A stretch of 32,800 bases of DNA, taken from the NCBI GenBank assembly GCA_903826865.1, contig CAIKGD010000038.1, positions 1 through 32,800 on the forward strand, read 5' to 3'. A program made the position numbers and the translations under genes. Shown piece by piece: positions 5,454 to 23,306 of the stretch (position 1 is its first letter; each line of letters starts with the position of its first letter). The DNA comes from an uncultured Verrucomicrobiota bacterium (GTDB lineage Bacteria; Verrucomicrobiota; Kiritimatiellia; Kiritimatiellales; Tichowtungiaceae). Below the pieces are notes generated by a model, which was not told the DNA's origin, searched no databases, and was given only the letters and a program-made list of their open reading frames with translations.

Positions 5454-6670
5454 TTACCGAACTGGTACCCAGTGGTGAACAATTTGGGCCGCAGCACCCA
5501 GCGCACCGCTGAATTCTCCCAGTTCTGATGCGACAATCTCGGGCGCAGACAGATGCCGTTCCCGGACATGTTCTGTCGCCTTCCGGCGGATACGATCCAG
5601 GAAAGTCTGGCCCAGCGCCATAAACGGGCTGGAAAAAATAATTTTTCCAGGATCCAGCAGCACGTTGATTTGTCCTGCGGCCCAGCCCAGCCCGTCGGCG
5701 GCGGCATTCAGATGGCTGACGGTCATTTTATCTCCCTTGCGGTATGCCTCCAGAAGGTCGTTTACGGTGATGTGCAAGCCGCATTCCGACAGAGAAGAAG
5801 GTTGTCCGTCCCGAATGCAGGTTGCGATATTGCGCAGTACAGCACGCACAGAAGCGATCTCTTCCAGCTCAATGTGCGCCGGATTGGAGCGGAATATATT
5901 TTTGATAACCTGCCGGTCTAAAACAGCCGCAGGGCAGAGCCAGAATCCGATTTCACCGGCGCTTTGGTGTGCGCCTTTGCAGACTTTCCCTTGGGTAACA
6001 ATACCTGCTCCCATGCCGCTTCGTACGACAATACTCACAAACTGGTCAGCTGCCCGTCCCTGTCCGAACCAGAGTTCTGCGGATGCCATAGCCCGCATAT
6101 TACTTTCCAGATAAACCGGGAAGTTAAAGTTTTTTTCGAAAAAGGATCCGATCTGGACATTTTCCCAGCCTTTAATGTATTTATAGAAAGAGCTGGTTCT
6201 CTGCTTGATATCGATTGATCCGGGTGCCGCCACGCCTAGACCCAGAATACGGCTGCGGTTTTTTGGCAGAATGCGCAGCACAGCATCCCGGGCGAGTTTC
6301 AGTACTTCCTCAACATCCGCATCGGGGCGGATGCTGATTGAAACGGAATCCTGAATCTCTTCTCTGAAATCAAGGCAAACAGCACGAATACGATTTGCTT
6401 CGATATCCACGCCAAGCAAATATCCGCCTCCGGGATTAAGAGATAAGGCCGTTCGCGGACGCCCCCTTTTGAGTCTCAGAACTTCATTTTCAAGCAGGAA
6501 GTTCTCCTTCAGAAGTCTCGATACAAAAATACCGATGGTGGAAGGTGCAACGCTCATCAGCGCGGCCAGTTCGACCCGGGAGATTCCCTGATGAGTACGA
6601 ACAAGCTGCAGCAACAAAGCCTCATGTTGAGCGATCAGTTGTTTTTTTTAACCGGCCTGTTTTTTAGCAT
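5454..6670 (-). CDS. ROK-family transcriptional regulator (NagC/XylR-like), possible 5' frameshift
   Basis: A winged-helix DNA-binding segment (G-I-S-R-V-E-L-A-A-L-M ... S-T-I-G) is followed by a basic G-R-P-R-T linker and an actin-fold ROK sugar-binding domain (G-V-D-I-E ... G-V-A-A-P-G ... G-A-H-Q-S-A-G-E-I-G). The usual ROK zinc motif C-x-C-G-x-x-G-C is absent, C-P-A-A-V-L-D standing in its place. Such proteins repress sugar-utilisation genes until a sugar or sugar phosphate binds. The uninterrupted frame reaches only to a stop at 6648-6650 and contains only TTG or CTG starts. An ATG at 6668-6670 with AAGAGGG before it is in the neighbouring frame, separated by a run of eight A (6642-6649). 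One more A would join them into a normal N-terminus. So this is either a homopolymer error, a real frameshift, or a TTG start at 6617. The target genes are not evident. Confidence 0.8.
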
Positions 6671-7000: not shown

Positions 7001-7609
7001 TTTGGTGTTGATCGATGCCGTCAGCGGGCGGAAGCCTGTAAGCGCGCCGACATTAAGGTTCCTGAAGAAACAGCACTGCTGGGTGTGGATAATGACGAAT
7101 TGGTCTGCGAGTTCGCCTCGCCGCCCTTGTCGAGCATTGTGCTCAATACCGAAAAAAGCGGGTATGATGCGGCCACAGTTTTGCACCGGATGATGCAGGG
7201 TAAAAAGGTCGGCGGAATTACCATTCCTATTCCGACTCCACGTGTTGTTACCCGGCAGTCGACGGATGTGATTGCGGTGAATGATCCGGTCGTGGCATGT
7301 GCGTTGAATTATATTCACGAACACTATCGTAAGGGGATTTCGGTCGACGATATTGCTAATGCTGCGGGAGTTTCCCGCCGGGTTCTGCAAATCCGTTTCC
7401 GGAAAGTAATGAACCGCTCGGTCTATGAAGAGGTCTTGCGTCTGCGTATGAATCAGGCGTGCCTTCTTTTGACTGAGACCAATCTTTCGGTTGCGCAGGT
7501 CGCCGAAGCGTTGAATTACGAAGAGATAAAATATTTTTCCCGGGCATTTCTTCAGATTGTCGGCATCAGTTTGCTAGCCTATCGAAAGCAGCAAAGTATC
7601 CGGAACTAA
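7001..7609 (+). pseudogene. XylR-type AraC regulator, N-terminus deleted
   Basis: From about 7001 the frame carries the end of a periplasmic-binding-protein-like sensor (R-A-D-I-K-V-P-E-E-T-A-L-L-G-V-D-N-D-E). A complete two-helix AraC-type DNA-binding domain follows (about 7300-7590: D-I-A-N-A-A-G-V-S-R-R ... V-A-E-A-L-N-Y). This sensor-plus-HTH order is that of the xylose regulator XylR and its many relatives. About 200 N-terminal residues are gone: TAG at 6998-7000 closes the frame and unrelated sequence precedes it. An ATG at 7085 could start a 174-residue DNA-binding fragment, but it has no clear ribosome site. The sugar kinase starts about 100 bp downstream, so this was probably its regulator. 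Confidence 0.75.
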
Positions 7610-7705
7610 TACGCAAATTGAGAAAAAATATTCGCGTAAAGCGGTTTGCTGATTTGGATAAAAAGTTCACCCTGTGAATGAATCATTTTAAAAGCGAGGC
7701 GTTTA

Positions 7706-8839: not shown

Positions 8840-9993
8840 TTATGGTTTAGTGAATGTGTGATTTTCACGGTAGGAAGAGGGCGCTATTCCCAAAAAACGG
8901 GAAAAAACCCGGGTCATTTGGCTGGCGGATGAAAAGCCGGCTCGCTCTGCAATATCTTCCATGGTGAACCGGTCTGGTTCGAGGAGCAGTTGCTGAGCGT
9001 GCTTGATCCGGCATTGCCTGAGTTCTTCGGCCATAGTATGTCCCACATGTTTTACAAATGCATCGTGCAACCAGCGATAAGACATAGGAATACCTTTACA
9101 AAGCTGTTCGGTGGAGACCGGATCCTGATAATGATTCCATATCCGGTTAAGGGCGGTGACAACATGAGGATGTCGAATTCCCAGCAGGTTGCTGCTTTTC
9201 CGGGTAACCACTCCCGTCGGGGGAATCAGCAGTGCGCGCTTAAGTGGTTTTTCTCCATTCATCATGCGATCCAGCAGGGCTGCGGCTTCGTACCCCTGCC
9301 GTTCCAGATCGGTGTCGATGCTGGAGAGCGGAACCGGAGCAAAATCGCAGATCAGCTCGTCATTATCTGCACCCAAAACGGCTACGTCTTCAGGTACGTG
9401 CAATCCGGCGTTTTCACAGGCTTGAAGAATTTCCACGCCCCGATCATCAAACTCCGTAATGACGGCCAGCGGTTTCGGCAACTGTTTCAGTGTTTTTGCG
9501 AGCCAGTCAATTCGGGCGTTGCTTCCGGCCTTTTGACTCTTTTTTGCCGTATTCCAATTCATTGAATGCAGTGTTGCATTTTGATTATTCAGAGCCCGGA
9601 TGAATTCTGCCGCACGCATTTCTTCTACGGGACCGCCCGAACAGATGTAATAAGAAAAATGCTTGAACCCCCGCATCAAGAAATGCTGAACCGCCATCTG
9701 CCCCATGATTTGGTTGTCGCATAATACCCGGGGATGCTGTCGGCAAGAATCGGCCCGATGTTAACGGTTGGAACTTTCAGTGATAGGATATGCCGATCCT
9801 GTTGCCCTTTAACGCCGAGCACGCAAATGACTCCGTGACCGTTCCAATAGGGCGGAATTTTGCCGGTACGTTCCATTTCAACATTTAGAATCCAGCGCAT
9901 TTGATTGGCATAATGGGCGACACCGCGTTGCAGTTTGTAGGAATGCCAGCCCAAGGCCAGCAGGACTTTTTTACGTTGCTTGAGCACTTTCAT
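8840..9993 (-). pseudogene. XylR-type AraC regulator, split by one frameshift
   Basis: Two minus-strand frames together make one full-length regulator of about 384 residues. The upstream frame (9993 to about 9730) holds the N-terminal sensor start (K-V-L-L-A-L-G-W-H-S-Y-K-L-Q-R-G). The downstream frame (about 9732 to 8840) continues D-N-Q-I-M-G-Q-M-A-V-Q-H-F and ends with an intact AraC-type HTH. The shift maps to the run of four G at 9730-9733 (C on the coding strand). One more base would give I-P-R-V-L-C-D-N, the normal family sequence. These regulators bind a sugar through the LacI-like part and usually activate adjacent genes. It diverges from the sulfatase pseudogene across 9994-10178, which contains two operator-like sites. 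It may be functional if the indel is a sequence error. Confidence 0.8.
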
Positions 9994-10062: not shown

Positions 10063-10096
10063 ACATCATAAAAATGCAAGGCGATATCTGAAAGTG
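10063..10096. promoter_or_regulatory. 34-bp shared upstream element, copy 1
   Basis: This stretch matches 11298-11331 at 28 of 34 positions. Constant cores are ACATCATAAAAA, then GCAA, then GATATC, then GAAAG. Similarity extends a little upstream (TGTTTTG). It lies between the divergent xylR-type and sulfatase genes, where a XylR-type protein would be expected to bind. Recognition by that regulator is inference. Confidence 0.55.
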
Positions 10097-10121
10097 TTTT
10101 TATATTTGCCGGGAGAGAGAG

Positions 10122-10137
10122 TCTAATCAAGATTAGA
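10122..10137. promoter_or_regulatory. Palindromic operator-like site
   Basis: TCTAATC-AA-GATTAGA is a perfect 7-bp inverted repeat with a 2-bp centre in the divergent intergenic region, 42 bp before the sulfatase ATG. Its form suits a dimeric repressor; no regulator is assigned. Confidence 0.4.
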
Positions 10138-10178
10138 GTAGCGGTTAGGGACATGAAATTTCCGGAGACGAATTGCAT

Positions 10179-11161
10179 ATGAAACGAAATTATTTTTTTA
10201 AATGAACCAGTGCAGCATCTGTTTTTTTATCCGCGACTGGATATGGTGCGTCAGCGACCGCAAAAAAACCGAATGTCGTGTTCATTGTATCCGATCAGCA
10301 GCGGCCGGATACCTGTGGATGCTACGGATCAGCAGTTAAACGCAAAGACGGAAGCTCTCCAACACCTACTTTGGATGCCTTGGCCGCTGATGGTGTTCGT
10401 TTTGACCGGGCCTGTTGCAATTCGCCGTTATGCGCCCCGTCCCGGGCCTCTTTTATAACTGGAACCTATCCGCACACAACCACAGCAAATTATCATCAGC
10501 CCGATCGGCGCAATCCGGGCGTGACACGTTTTCCCGGTGTGCGCGAAAATCTTCCGACGATGGGAGAGGTTTTCCGTGCGGGAGGATATCGCACAGCCGC
10601 AATCGGTAAAATGCATGTCCATGGCGAATTAAAGGATGTGTGGGATATGGGGTTCGATGTTACTAAACTCAGATTTTATACGGAATTCCCCGGTTGCATT
10701 ACGCCGATTTGCGCGATGGCGATCTGAATGCACGCTATCGCGGGATAGGCGATTATAAGGAAAAAACCTATCGGGAAGTCGATCCGGTCCGGTTTAAAAA
10801 TGCTCCCGCCGATGTGAGAGCAAAGAACAATGAGCTGAATCCACATTATCTGGAAACACTGGTCGAAAACGAAGACGAGATGTTTGACCATTTGGTGGCA
10901 AATGAATCAATTCGTTTTATTGAAGAAAGCGTACAAACCAAAAAACCGTTTTTCATTCATGTCGGAATGGGAAAACCGCATCCCAGCTGGGATACATTTC
11001 AGCGGTTTTTGGATATGTTTAATCCGGATGAAATGCCATTGCCGGCCACGATTCGGGAGTGGAAGGAAAAAGGAATGCTTCCGACTCATCTCGCATGGGC
11101 ACACAATGGGCCTTTTTATAATCGGGTGCACAGGCCTGCTTGGTGTTCGCATGCATCTTAG
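10179..11161 (+). pseudogene. Sulfatase pseudogene with three lesions
   Basis: The ATG at 10179 with GGAGA upstream starts a Tat-like leader (M-K-R-N-Y-F-F-K). An in-frame TGA at 10203-10205 follows, and the same frame continues with T-S-A-A-S-V-F-L-S-A-T and then the sulfatase core (N-V-V-F-I-V-S-D-Q-Q-R-P-D-T). The formylglycine motif C-A-P-S-R is intact near 10430. Around 10694 the frame shifts by one base: F-P-G-C continues as H-Y-A-D-L-R-D-G-D only in the next frame. The second frame ends at 11161 before the D-H-G motif and the C-terminal domain. An internal start would still give only a fragment. A good terminator follows at 11190. It was probably the second exported sulfatase of this locus. 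Confidence 0.8.
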
Positions 11162-11189
11162 GAAGTAAAAAATTGCTTCGATGGCGATG

Positions 11190-11230
11190 AACCTTTGGCT
11201 CGGCAAGTTTTTTGGGCCAAAGGTTTTTGT
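11190..11230 (+). terminator. Intrinsic terminator after the sulfatase pseudogene
   Basis: AACCTTTGGC at 11190-11199 pairs perfectly with 11216-11225 and is followed by TTTGT. The loop is 16 nt. Confidence 0.65.
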
Positions 11231-11297
11231 ATTTCGAGGTGATGATTTGTTGAAGGCCTGCGGCGGTTCCATACGGATAATGACAATGTGTTTTGTA

Positions 11298-11331
11298 ACA
11301 TCATAAAAACGCAAACGGATATCCGAAAGCG
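11298..11331. promoter_or_regulatory. 34-bp shared upstream element, copy 2
   Basis: Partner of 10063-10096, 28 of 34 positions identical and in the same orientation, ending 125 bp before the GH42 start. Its placement supports co-regulation of the GH42 gene with the XylR/sulfatase pair. The rest of 11231-11456 shows no gene. Confidence 0.55.
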
Positions 11332-11456: not shown

Positions 11457-13553
11457 ATGTTTGCACTCGGTTCACAATATCATCGTCCGCCAACACCCAA
11501 AATGGACAAGTGGGAAGATGATTTTAAAACGATGAAAGCGCATGGTTTTAACATTGCCCGCGGATGGGCCATGTGGGGCTGGTTGAATTCCAAAGAGGGT
11601 GAATATGACTTTTCAGAACTGGAGCGGCTTTGTGATTTAGGTCTTAAGTACGACATTAAGATTATTCTGCTGATCAATCTCGAGAGCACTCCGGCCTGGC
11701 TGTATAAAAAATACCCAGAAACGCTGTATGTGGATCATCGGGGCGCAAAGGTTGTTCCGCATACGGTTCACAATACCTGCTGCGGCGGGTTCCCCGGACA
11801 CTGCCTGCATTGGCCTGAAGTAAAGGGACATGCAGTTGATTTTATCAGCGCTCTCGTCGCGAAATTCGCCAGCCATCCGGCCCTTTACGGATGGGAACCC
11901 CACAATGAGCCGTTGCACGAGCCGGCGCGTTACTATCGGGACGGTGACGGAGAAATCTTCTGCTACTGTGAAAAAACTATGGAACAGTTTATCAAGTGGC
12001 TCAAAGTCAAATATAACAACAACATCAATCTGCTGAACAACACCTGGCAGCGGCGCTACGGTGCTTTTGACGAAGTGATTCCTCCGGTAGAGCGCGGCAG
12101 CTATTCCGACTGGACCGACTGGCGGCTGTTTCATATCGAGGATCTGGTTAATCAGGATAAATGGAGAACGCAGGTCATTCGCGACAACGATCCGGCCCAC
12201 CCGGTAATGATCCACACCCGCTCGGCCTCTTCCGGCCGTAATATCGTGTTTGACTGCACCGATGACTGGCGTCTGTCGCAGTTTGTTGACAGCTTCGGCT
12301 TCGCCAGTTTCCCGGAAACGGTCTCCATGCTGGATCATGCCATGGCGGGAGACATCAACCGTGCAGCCGCACAGGGTAAAGAGTTCTGGATGCATGAGCT
12401 GGCTTCCGGCTCGTACGGCATTGGTCTCGATATTCCTGCAGCCGATCTGCCCGGTGACCGCGTCGCCGGATGGGCGTTGACGACCATTTCTCAAGGGGCG
12501 AGAGGGCTGTTGATGTGGCAGTTCCGCACGGAGCAGTTCGGCGCGGAATACGGCTTTAATCTGGTCAATTTGGACGGAACGCCGAATGAGCGCCTGAAAG
12601 CCGTGGAGCATGTCGGCCGGACAGTTTTTGAAAATGAGTCATTATTCGATCAGTTGAAGCCGATACCGTCGGAAGTGGCGATCGGTTATTCTCCGATGAA
12701 TCCCCTCATGCTGTATGTCGCTGACGGGACGGTTGCTCCGTTCGATCATTCCTATCTGGGCGCCTACAGAATCCTGTGCAACCTGAGTATTCCGGCGGTC
12801 GATATTGTTCGTCTCGACACGCAGGCGGTGAATGACGATTTCAATAAATATAAAGTCATTTACATGCCGCTTCCGTTGTGGATGGATGAGGCGACAGCCG
12901 CGAAAATTGAACGTTTCGTGGCGCAGGGCGGTACCGTGATTTCCGAGCCTTCGCTGGCGCTGATTGAAACGGATTACTATTCCGCAGATACCGTTCCCGG
13001 CATGGGATTGCATAAAGTCTTCGGCTGCCGCCGGGAGCTGATGGGCAACTGCAAAGATAAACCGGTTAAAATCAATGCGGGCGGAACACAGTTGACGTCG
13101 CGGTTTCTGCGCGAAGTGCTGATTCCTGAAGGTGCCGAAGTGATCGGAACGTATGAAACCGGAGAACCGGCCATTACCGTGAATCAATACGGGAAAGGTA
13201 AAGCCGTTTATCTTGGATCGAATATTTTCAACCAGTACTACCATTCGCCGTCAGTCGAAGTGCGCGATTTTTTCCAGAAGCATTTTCATGGCGATATCGG
13301 CCGATGGGCTGTAACAGAGGCCGCTGAAAAGACCTTTGTGAAAATCATGGCGGCGGACGAATGCCGCGTGGTTTTCCTGTTCAATATGGTGGACGAGACG
13401 GTTGAGACCCGATTGACGGTGAATGCCAAGGTCAAAGAAGCCGAAGATATTTACAATCATCAGATCGTTCAGTTCAAGCAGGGCAAGCAGTCCGTCGCGA
13501 AAATGTCTTTGAAACCGTACGCATCCTGCATTCTGCTGTTCAAAAATCCATAG
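11457..13553 (+). CDS. GH42-type beta-galactosidase-like glycoside hydrolase
   Basis: A 698-residue protein with the GH42 plan. It has a catalytic TIM barrel (about 1-380), a trimerisation-like Rossmann domain (about 400-610, A-I-G-Y-S-P ... Y-M-P-L-P-L-W) and a C-terminal beta domain. The acid/base is E151 in G-W-E-P-H-N-E-P; the nucleophile is E314 in W-M-H-E-L-A-S-G. Cysteines in H-N-T-C-C ... C-L-H-W and C169-Y-C171 resemble the GH42 metal cluster. AGAGGAGAAAG precedes the ATG. There is no signal peptide, so it acts in the cytoplasm on imported oligosaccharides, removing beta-galactosyl or related residues. A 34-bp element shared with the upstream regulator locus lies in front. GH42 relatives also include arabinosidases and fucosidases, so the sugar is uncertain. 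Confidence 0.85.
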   Translation: MFALGSQYHRPPTPKMDKWEDDFKTMKAHGFNIARGWAMWGWLNSKEGEYDFSELERLCDLGLKYDIKIILLINLESTPAWLYKKYPETLYVDHRGAKVVPHTVHNTCCGGFPGHCLHWPEVKGHAVDFISALVAKFASHPALYGWEPHNEPLHEPARYYRDGDGEIFCYCEKTMEQFIKWLKVKYNNNINLLNNTWQRRYGAFDEVIPPVERGSYSDWTDWRLFHIEDLVNQDKWRTQVIRDNDPAHPVMIHTRSASSGRNIVFDCTDDWRLSQFVDSFGFASFPETVSMLDHAMAGDINRAAAQGKEFWMHELASGSYGIGLDIPAADLPGDRVAGWALTTISQGARGLLMWQFRTEQFGAEYGFNLVNLDGTPNERLKAVEHVGRTVFENESLFDQLKPIPSEVAIGYSPMNPLMLYVADGTVAPFDHSYLGAYRILCNLSIPAVDIVRLDTQAVNDDFNKYKVIYMPLPLWMDEATAAKIERFVAQGGTVISEPSLALIETDYYSADTVPGMGLHKVFGCRRELMGNCKDKPVKINAGGTQLTSRFLREVLIPEGAEVIGTYETGEPAITVNQYGKGKAVYLGSNIFNQYYHSPSVEVRDFFQKHFHGDIGRWAVTEAAEKTFVKIMAADECRVVFLFNMVDETVETRLTVNAKVKEAEDIYNHQIVQFKQGKQSVAKMSLKPYASCILLFKNP

Positions 13554-13931: not shown

Positions 13932-15149
13932 ATGGAATGGTTTAACAGTTTTTTGGCAGGCTATGTAAAAGGGATCAATGGCTGGGATGTTCTGGTGATC
14001 GCCAGGTACTTTGTCGGCATTGTTCTGATGGGTAGGACTGATCGTTACAACTATATCGTTGGTACGCAAACCATCGGTTCCAAATACCAGTTTACCGATA
14101 AAACGCGACTGCTGGAAACGGCTGAAATAATCCATGGAATGGGTTCTAATATATTGAAATTCAATATGGGTTCTGTTTTCAGCAAAGACAATTATGCCGG
14201 GCCGAATCCCGGAAACTACAAAGATCTGGCAGATATGGCCGCCAATGAACCGTCGATTTATGCGGTGCTGGGTATGCCGTTTTACTATTACATAATCTGG
14301 GCCAATCCATTGCAAAAGACCGAATGGCAGTGGCGGAAGACGAATGACCGCCTGACGGATGCTGAGGCCGAGATCGAATATCGGGAGCTTTATGATCTGT
14401 CCTGCTACCTTCTCAAAACCTACAGCGGCAGCGGCAAGTCGTTTTATCTGGGTCACTGGGAAGGTGACTGGCTGCTGCTGGCTGGATATGACAGAACTAA
14501 AGATCCGGTTCCTGCGCGTGTCGCGGAGACGATCAAGTGGTTGAATATCCGGCAGAAAGCAGTAGACGATGCCAGACGCGATACGCCGCATCATGATGTC
14601 CGGCTGTTTCATTACACGGAAGTGAACCTCGTTCAAAAAGGACTGCGCGGCAGTCCGTGTATGACCACGGACGTTCTTCCGCATGTCAACGTGGATTTTG
14701 TATCGTATTCTGCTTACGATGTGGCGTTTGACGATGCGATGCCGAGTGCACTGTATGAAGCTCTCGATTTTATTAAAAAACATCTTCCGGAAAAAGAGGG
14801 ATTGCCGGATTGCCGGATTTTCATCGGAGAGTTCGGATATAAGGGATCTGAGTTTGCTCCGGTTGTACAGCAGCAGAAAAGTATTCAGTTCGCGCAGCGC
14901 GCTGTCGAGTGGGGCTGCCCGTTTGTTCTGTACTGGCAGCTGTACGACAATGAAATAGTTGACGGAAAATATGAAGGATACTGGCTGATTGATAATCAGG
15001 GGAAGAAGCAGCCGCTTTTTTATGCGCTGGAAAAGTATTATTCCGGAGCCCGGAAATATGTGGCAGAGCGTCTCGAACTGGACGGCCAGCTGCCGGATCA
15101 GAAACAGTTTAACAAAGAGGCTTGGAGCATTTTGACCCAGGTGAAATAA
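13932..15149 (+). CDS. Putative glycoside hydrolase, TIM-barrel type, family not assigned
   Basis: A 405-residue protein of (beta/alpha)8 appearance. Two glutamates sit where clan-A retaining hydrolases have theirs: E177 in L-G-H-W-E-G-D-W and E300 at a strand end in F-I-G-E-F-G-Y. Y-W-Q-L-Y-D-N-E and G-K-K-Q-P near the end resemble the last strand of GH5/GH39-like barrels. I do not recognise the exact family. The first 35 residues look unlike the rest and are not a clean signal peptide; the conserved part seems to begin near Y-N-Y-I-V-G-T-Q, so the true N-terminus may be altered or start later. AGGTAGG precedes the ATG. A sulfatase follows 116 bp downstream on the same strand, supporting a role in sulfated-polysaccharide breakdown. 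Confidence 0.65.
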   Translation: MEWFNSFLAGYVKGINGWDVLVIARYFVGIVLMGRTDRYNYIVGTQTIGSKYQFTDKTRLLETAEIIHGMGSNILKFNMGSVFSKDNYAGPNPGNYKDLADMAANEPSIYAVLGMPFYYYIIWANPLQKTEWQWRKTNDRLTDAEAEIEYRELYDLSCYLLKTYSGSGKSFYLGHWEGDWLLLAGYDRTKDPVPARVAETIKWLNIRQKAVDDARRDTPHHDVRLFHYTEVNLVQKGLRGSPCMTTDVLPHVNVDFVSYSAYDVAFDDAMPSALYEALDFIKKHLPEKEGLPDCRIFIGEFGYKGSEFAPVVQQQKSIQFAQRAVEWGCPFVLYWQLYDNEIVDGKYEGYWLIDNQGKKQPLFYALEKYYSGARKYVAERLELDGQLPDQKQFNKEAWSILTQVK

Positions 15150-20100: not shown

Positions 20101-20227
20101 CTATACGGACGCCCCCGCACCGCCGCAACCTGAAACAGCCGGAAAATCAGGCGTTAGAGATAGGGGGGGATGGATGCTGTGGGAGTGTGGGAGTGCTTAT
20201 CCTCTGACATCCGACCTCTGATCTCTG

Positions 20228-20297
20228 CTCTCTGACCCCTGACCTCTGACCGCTAAGACGCGAAGAAACGAAGGCCGGGAGAATTTTAGACAGGATA
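20228..20297. repeat. Intergenic inverted repeat, left arm
   Basis: This segment, from TCTGACCCCTGACCTCTGA through AAGACGCGAAGAAACG to TTTAGACAGGATA, reappears inverted and slightly diverged at 23196-23270. It starts in a tract of degenerate CTCTGACC-like heptamers (20203-20251). The arms flank the HAD phosphatase and FGGY kinase genes. The 20053-20517 gap holds no gene. Confidence 0.75.
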
Positions 20298-23195: not shown

Positions 23196-23270
23196 TATCC
23201 TGTCTAAATTTCTCCCGGCCTTCGTTTCTTCGTGTCTTAGAGGTCAGAAATCAGAGGTCAGGGGTCAGAT
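23196..23270. repeat. Intergenic inverted repeat, right arm
   Basis: The inverse complement of 20228-20297 with a few changes and one extra heptamer. It includes TATCCTGTCTAAA, TTTCTCCCGGCCTTCG and a GGTCAG-rich tract. It adjoins the IS256 remnant; the remaining bases to 23306 hold no gene. Confidence 0.75.
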
Positions 23271-23306
23271 ATGCAACCCTGAAGCCTGTGGTCTGCGGCT
23301 TGAAGC

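Follow-up and report, generated by a model that had tools for sequence, protein, structure and literature searches.

Paired 34-bp elements with half-sites 21 bp apart as candidate operators of a XylR-type regulator in a Verrucomicrobiota polysaccharide locus

Two similar noncoding sequences lie in a polysaccharide locus of an uncultured Verrucomicrobiota bacterium, one before a sulfatase gene and beside a divergent XylR-type regulator gene, the other before a GH42 gene. The question raised by this locus is whether the pair represents the binding sites of the adjacent regulator. Here, we analysed the window, a stretch of 32,800 nucleotides that carries the locus, together with its source genome and with XylR-type loci of relatives.

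The paired element and the state of the locus

An earlier note had described two copies of a 34-bp element with 28 of 34 bases shared in the same orientation, including the blocks GCAA, GATATC and GAAAG, and had placed one copy between the divergent XylR-type and sulfatase genes and the other before GH42. Alignment within the window confirmed both the pair and its placement (Table 1); the 28 identical bases lie on the same strand, and both copies are noncoding. The pair was the sole case in the window of same-orientation 34-mers with at least 28 matches, and no such pair appeared in 12 dinucleotide shuffles of the window. The resemblance ends at the element edges, the flanks being unrelated except for a short upstream TGTTTTG, and the six mismatches fall in short spacers (element positions 13, 18-20, 27 and 33). 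Such block-wise divergence between unrelated flanks appears more in keeping with a site bound by protein than with a duplicated piece of DNA.

Table 1. Coordinates of the element copies, their half-sites and the neighbouring features in the window
Feature	Position	Strand	Description
Element copy 1	10063..10096	+	ACATCATAAAAATGCAAGGCGATATCTGAAAGTG; 82 nt to sulfatase ATG 10179, between sulfatase and divergent xylR
Copy 1 half-site 1	10063..10072	+	ACATCATAAA; lag-21 self-match p about 0.016
Copy 1 half-site 2	10084..10093	+	ATATCTGAAA; 21 bp downstream of half-site 1
Element copy 2	11298..11331	+	ACATCATAAAAACGCAAACGGATATCCGAAAGCG; 125 nt to GH42 ATG 11457
Copy 2 half-site 1	11298..11307	+	ACATCATAAA, same as copy 1
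Copy 2 half-site 2	11319..11328	+	ATATCCGAAA
ROK protein	5454-6617
XylR-type regulator xylR	8840..9993	-	PF13377 (periplasmic-binding-protein-like sensor domain) and PF12833 (AraC HTH)
Sulfatase pseudogene	10179..11161	+	Pfam Sulfatase on both fragments; three-frame translation
Terminator-like hairpin	11189..11226	+	15 pairs; separates sulfatase remnant from GH42 promoter region
GH42 beta-galactosidase-like gene	11457..13553	+	intact, 698 aa; Pfam PF02449, PF08532

The domains of the window regulator, a sensor and a two-helix-turn-helix AraC domain, place it in the XylR-type class, and its best PDB match is E. coli XylR (4fe4/4fe7), of which it is only a distant relative. The xylR gene starts at 9993 on the minus strand, with copy 1 lying 70 bp upstream of the start codon, and has no intact ORF, because a frameshift has broken it into two ORFs (9676-9993 and 8840-9706) that overlap and lie in different frames. 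Its DNA-binding half is intact inside the latter ORF, which carries both Pfam domains. Given the frameshift, a functional XylR regulator is probably absent in the assembly as it stands. The sulfatase gene carries an in-frame TGA (10203-10205) within the signal peptide, is frameshifted near 10700 and lacks its C-terminus; the CAPSR active-site motif is present in the pseudogene. A second XylR/AraC-type regulator gene, N-terminally truncated and 36% identical to the first, lies directly upstream of a PfkB kinase (7010-7609, plus strand) and looks like another mark of decay in the locus. Copy 2 is located downstream of the terminator-like hairpin, and GH42 probably has its own promoter region, in which this copy lies. 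None of the neighbour genes scanned (sulfatases, GH42, PfkB and ROK) was recognised as a xylose gene. Elsewhere in the window, a 405-aa protein with no Pfam or NCBIfam match is encoded between GH42 and a second sulfatase (13932-15149, plus strand), and a 77-nt inverted repeat that is unrelated to the element has its arms 2.9 kb apart (20221-20297 and 23196-23272; 87% complementary).

The broken xylR and sulfatase genes, the regulator remnant nearby and the failure to find the exact element sequence elsewhere in the source genome or in 13 same-genus genomes would agree with a different origin of the pair, namely leftovers of a small local duplication that are now functionless in a decaying locus. 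However, the likeness stops at the element edges with the differences clustered in fixed spacers, both copies stand before genes and point the same way, and GH42 is intact; we regard such an origin as improbable. The earlier note had held that a recent duplicated fragment without conservation elsewhere would speak against an operator, and the first part of this objection is disfavoured by the unrelated flanks and the block-wise divergence.

It is very improbable that the pair serves as core promoters or as an RNA leader and not as a site for a regulator. The minus strand of copy 1 does contain TTCAGA-16-TATGAT, a 9/12 sigma-70-like match directed towards xylR, but sigma-70-like matches were no commoner than in shuffles (2 vs 2.4), there is no minus-strand gene for copy 2 to serve, and conserved blocks spread over 34 bases are more than a core promoter accounts for. 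The RNA leader possibility was rejected with no Rfam match.

Half-sites and the 21-bp spacing at related loci

Within each copy, the half-site consensus AyATCnkAAA is repeated at exactly 21 bp, corresponding to two helical turns, and the second half-site reads ATATC(T/C)GAAA across the two copies. The lag-21 self-match reached p = 0.016 against permuted columns and lags 20 and 22 were not significant, while lags 13 and 14 gave raw scores about equal to that of lag 21; taken alone, the self-repeat is weak to modest evidence, and it is weaker in the window element than at many other XylR loci. It gains weight because a 21-bp distance is expected from AraC-type operators, and because XylR-type sites have been described as two AT-rich direct repeats. 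As in a tandem operator, both copies hold two direct half-sites at this distance, and a site stands before each target unit in the same orientation.

About 90 loci with XylR-type genes from relatives were compared with 20 control regions from the same genomes, distant from such genes. The lag statistic was computed on noncoding hexamers flanking xylR or within 3.5 kb of it, with satellites filtered out. Near xylR, 46 hexamers were repeated at exactly 21 bp, 16 of them flanking the gene and 30 within 3.5 kb, whereas each other lag gave about 16 (Poisson p about 8e-10); farther from xylR the corresponding values were 25 against 17.5, and in the control regions 9 against 7.7. The window was among the loci counted; no exact hexamer recurs at 21 bp in its element, and it does not drive this result. 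Examples at this spacing include two copies each of TTGCACA (L064), GAYACA (L041), TTTGCGCA or TGCGCA (L089, L164 and L169) and, at two sites, TAATGAWA (L172). Furthermore, noncoding 34-mer pairs with 26-31 of 34 bases shared were found at 18 of 90 loci in the vicinity of xylR, and in none of the 20 control regions. Since some of these pairs look like terminators, satellites or duplications (e.g. at L100, L113, L123 and L174), single pairs were not counted as proof, and the lag statistic with satellites filtered out was relied on in their place. Taken together, the hexamer and pair statistics suggest that the arrangement in the window is common for XylR-type regulators, with half-site letters that vary from one regulator to another.

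Two further observations were made at these loci. Beside the XylR-type gene of L041, a 34-bp element (GACACA...TAATAAGATACAT) occurs in three copies (at 5665, 10291 and 12734) and carries the GAYACA repeat at 21 bp. Tandem repeats of TTTGCGCA/TGCGCA at 21-22 bp were present at different XylR loci and in different genomes (L164, L169, L089, L110 and L131), and this sequence is possibly a widely shared half-site.

Distribution of the element and the nearest regulators

A regulon motif, to be found upstream of sulfatase, GH and xylR-type genes in the source genome and its relatives, had been proposed in the earlier note. With up to three mismatches allowed, the consensus pattern occurred at exactly two places in the 2.64 Mb source genome, copies 1 and 2 themselves, while 13 further genomes from the same genus gave no match. 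The 34-mer is therefore a locus-private element, and these counts do not support a genome-wide regulon motif before such genes. A PWM built from both copies found no match exceeding background in all fetched XylR loci. Absence of conservation elsewhere, the second part of the objection above, thus holds for the exact sequence but not for the architecture, which recurs at related XylR loci. Outside the source genome, the best match to the window regulator was 44% identical and the GH42 relatives reached 31% identity at most; a GTDB contig scan with narrow, automatically chosen peptide patterns returned three distant matches, and a plasmid search was empty. The genomes searched yielded no orthologous locus, and therefore the element itself could not be footprinted by comparison.

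An intact regulator, 72% identical to the window xylR product, is encoded on another contig of the source genome (G000:C23:7713-8852), where its neighbours are a sulfatase, a GH2-like protein, URO-D proteins and an ABC ATPase. No clear copy of the element was detected when this paralogue locus was scanned. The best candidate (position 7614 of this locus, L033; 18/27, shuffle p = 0.048) is oriented against the neighbouring gene and touches its ribosome-binding region. A half-site-like CATGCTAAAAATGC before the paralogous xylR was judged to be chance. This lack of a clear copy, together with the broken adjacent xylR and the presence of further regulators nearby, would suit a site bound by some other protein, such as the truncated AraC-type remnant, the ROK protein or a distant regulator. 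Against such an assignment, which we consider unlikely, there are just two copies in the genome and both touch the xylR locus, 21-bp tandem repeats are enriched beside XylR-type genes, and the remnant is itself truncated; moreover, ROK sites are usually palindromic, which counts against ROK as the binder.

Besides the paralogue, the closest DNA-binding domains are those of L114-L118, with a common first recognition helix SYRxLHDAF. At the XylR loci of one of these genomes (G222) a 40-bp motif recurs, GCATCATTTTTCRGAGATANNNNTGCAAGCAATATGCCTT, and a whole-genome search with its core retrieved six copies of TTCRGAGATANNNNTGCAANCAATATG, all on two XylR contigs. These contigs, C33 and C54, correspond to L114 and L115. 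One copy (L114:13243) lies 70 bp before a sulfatase gene, and two directly precede xylR genes, one of them facing a divergent target gene. When aligned with the window element in target-gene orientation, the motif gave p = 0.011 with ATA-N4-TGCAAG in common; the opposite orientation was almost as good (p = 0.019), and its reading of TTTCRGA-N-AT-N5-TGC shared with L114 was set aside in favour of the orientation-consistent forward alignment. The two sequences are alike in a leading CATCAT followed by ATA-N4-TGCAAG, and also in having several copies before genes of the locus, a sulfatase included. They differ in the distance from CATCAT to TGCAA, which is 22 bp in G222 and 11 bp in the window and hence about one helical turn longer in the former, and the G222 motif, unlike the window element, shows no clear 21-bp self-repeat. 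The resemblance is modest and suggestive, not proof. As a model regulon, L114 and L115 would serve better than the window.

A putative operator and its known counterparts

The two 34-bp elements are likely operators for the XylR-type regulator encoded beside them, or for the form that this regulator had before its gene was broken. This assignment, which the earlier note had also suggested, is the best supported by position, orientation, the 21-bp spacing and the related loci, and it has against it the frameshift in xylR, the paralogue locus with no clear copy, the modest internal repeat and the modest resemblance to the G222 motif. The search for -10/-35 boxes, too, yielded none convincing at a fixed distance and no -10 at a distance common to both copies. 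We read the element as an operator because of its architecture, that is, the half-site repeat at 21 bp and the same layout at related loci. A regulator dimer would set its two AraC-type DNA-binding domains on the directly repeated half-sites AyATCnkAAA, which start two helical turns apart. The signal would be a sugar that is released from the substrate polysaccharide and bound by the regulator, and the sugar-bound regulator would, on family precedent, activate the sulfatase and GH42 transcription units; at copy 1 it probably would control its own gene, xylR, as well. Given the frameshifted xylR, any present-day use of the sites is something we infer, and they may be orphaned or served by the intact paralogue. 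A more speculative and rather doubtful idea is that the operator pair passed to the paralogue, which would put two separate polysaccharide loci on one switch. More broadly, the many XylR-type regulators of these bacteria might all keep to a 21-bp tandem layout and vary only in the half-site letters. If true, such a fixed layout with variable letters would make regulator-operator pairs readable from sequence alone.

The half-sites araI1/I2 have a 21-bp centre spacing. The window element resembles the AraC operator of araBAD in its tandem half-sites with this spacing, although the sensor domain of AraC is unrelated to that of the window regulator, and no looping operator was seen in the window. 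In araBAD, a single dimer occupies I1 and I2 as tandem half-sites (PMC10547716). In E. coli XylR and Vibrio XylRA, as in the window regulator, a LacI/GalR-like sensor domain is joined to an AraC-type HTH. The sites bound by XylRA are two AT-rich direct repeats that lie upstream of the genes it controls, and it activates these genes with xylose (PMC12125979); the operators of these systems are like the window pair in having two AT-rich direct repeats before each target of a sugar or polysaccharide locus. Unlike in those systems, the genes in the window are for sulfatases, GH42, a PfkB kinase and ROK, with no xylose gene recognised among those scanned.

XylR-type regulators number ten to twenty-five or more in some genomes of the group and in several loci adjoin sulfatase and carbohydrate-active genes, and our literature search found no description of binding sites for XylR-type regulators in this group. 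The window pair is one instance, and the added value lies in the 21-bp spacing across XylR-type loci. When this spacing is combined with recurrence inside a locus, candidate operators of XylR-type regulators can be picked out, and the polysaccharide regulons of a poorly cultured group thereby become testable.
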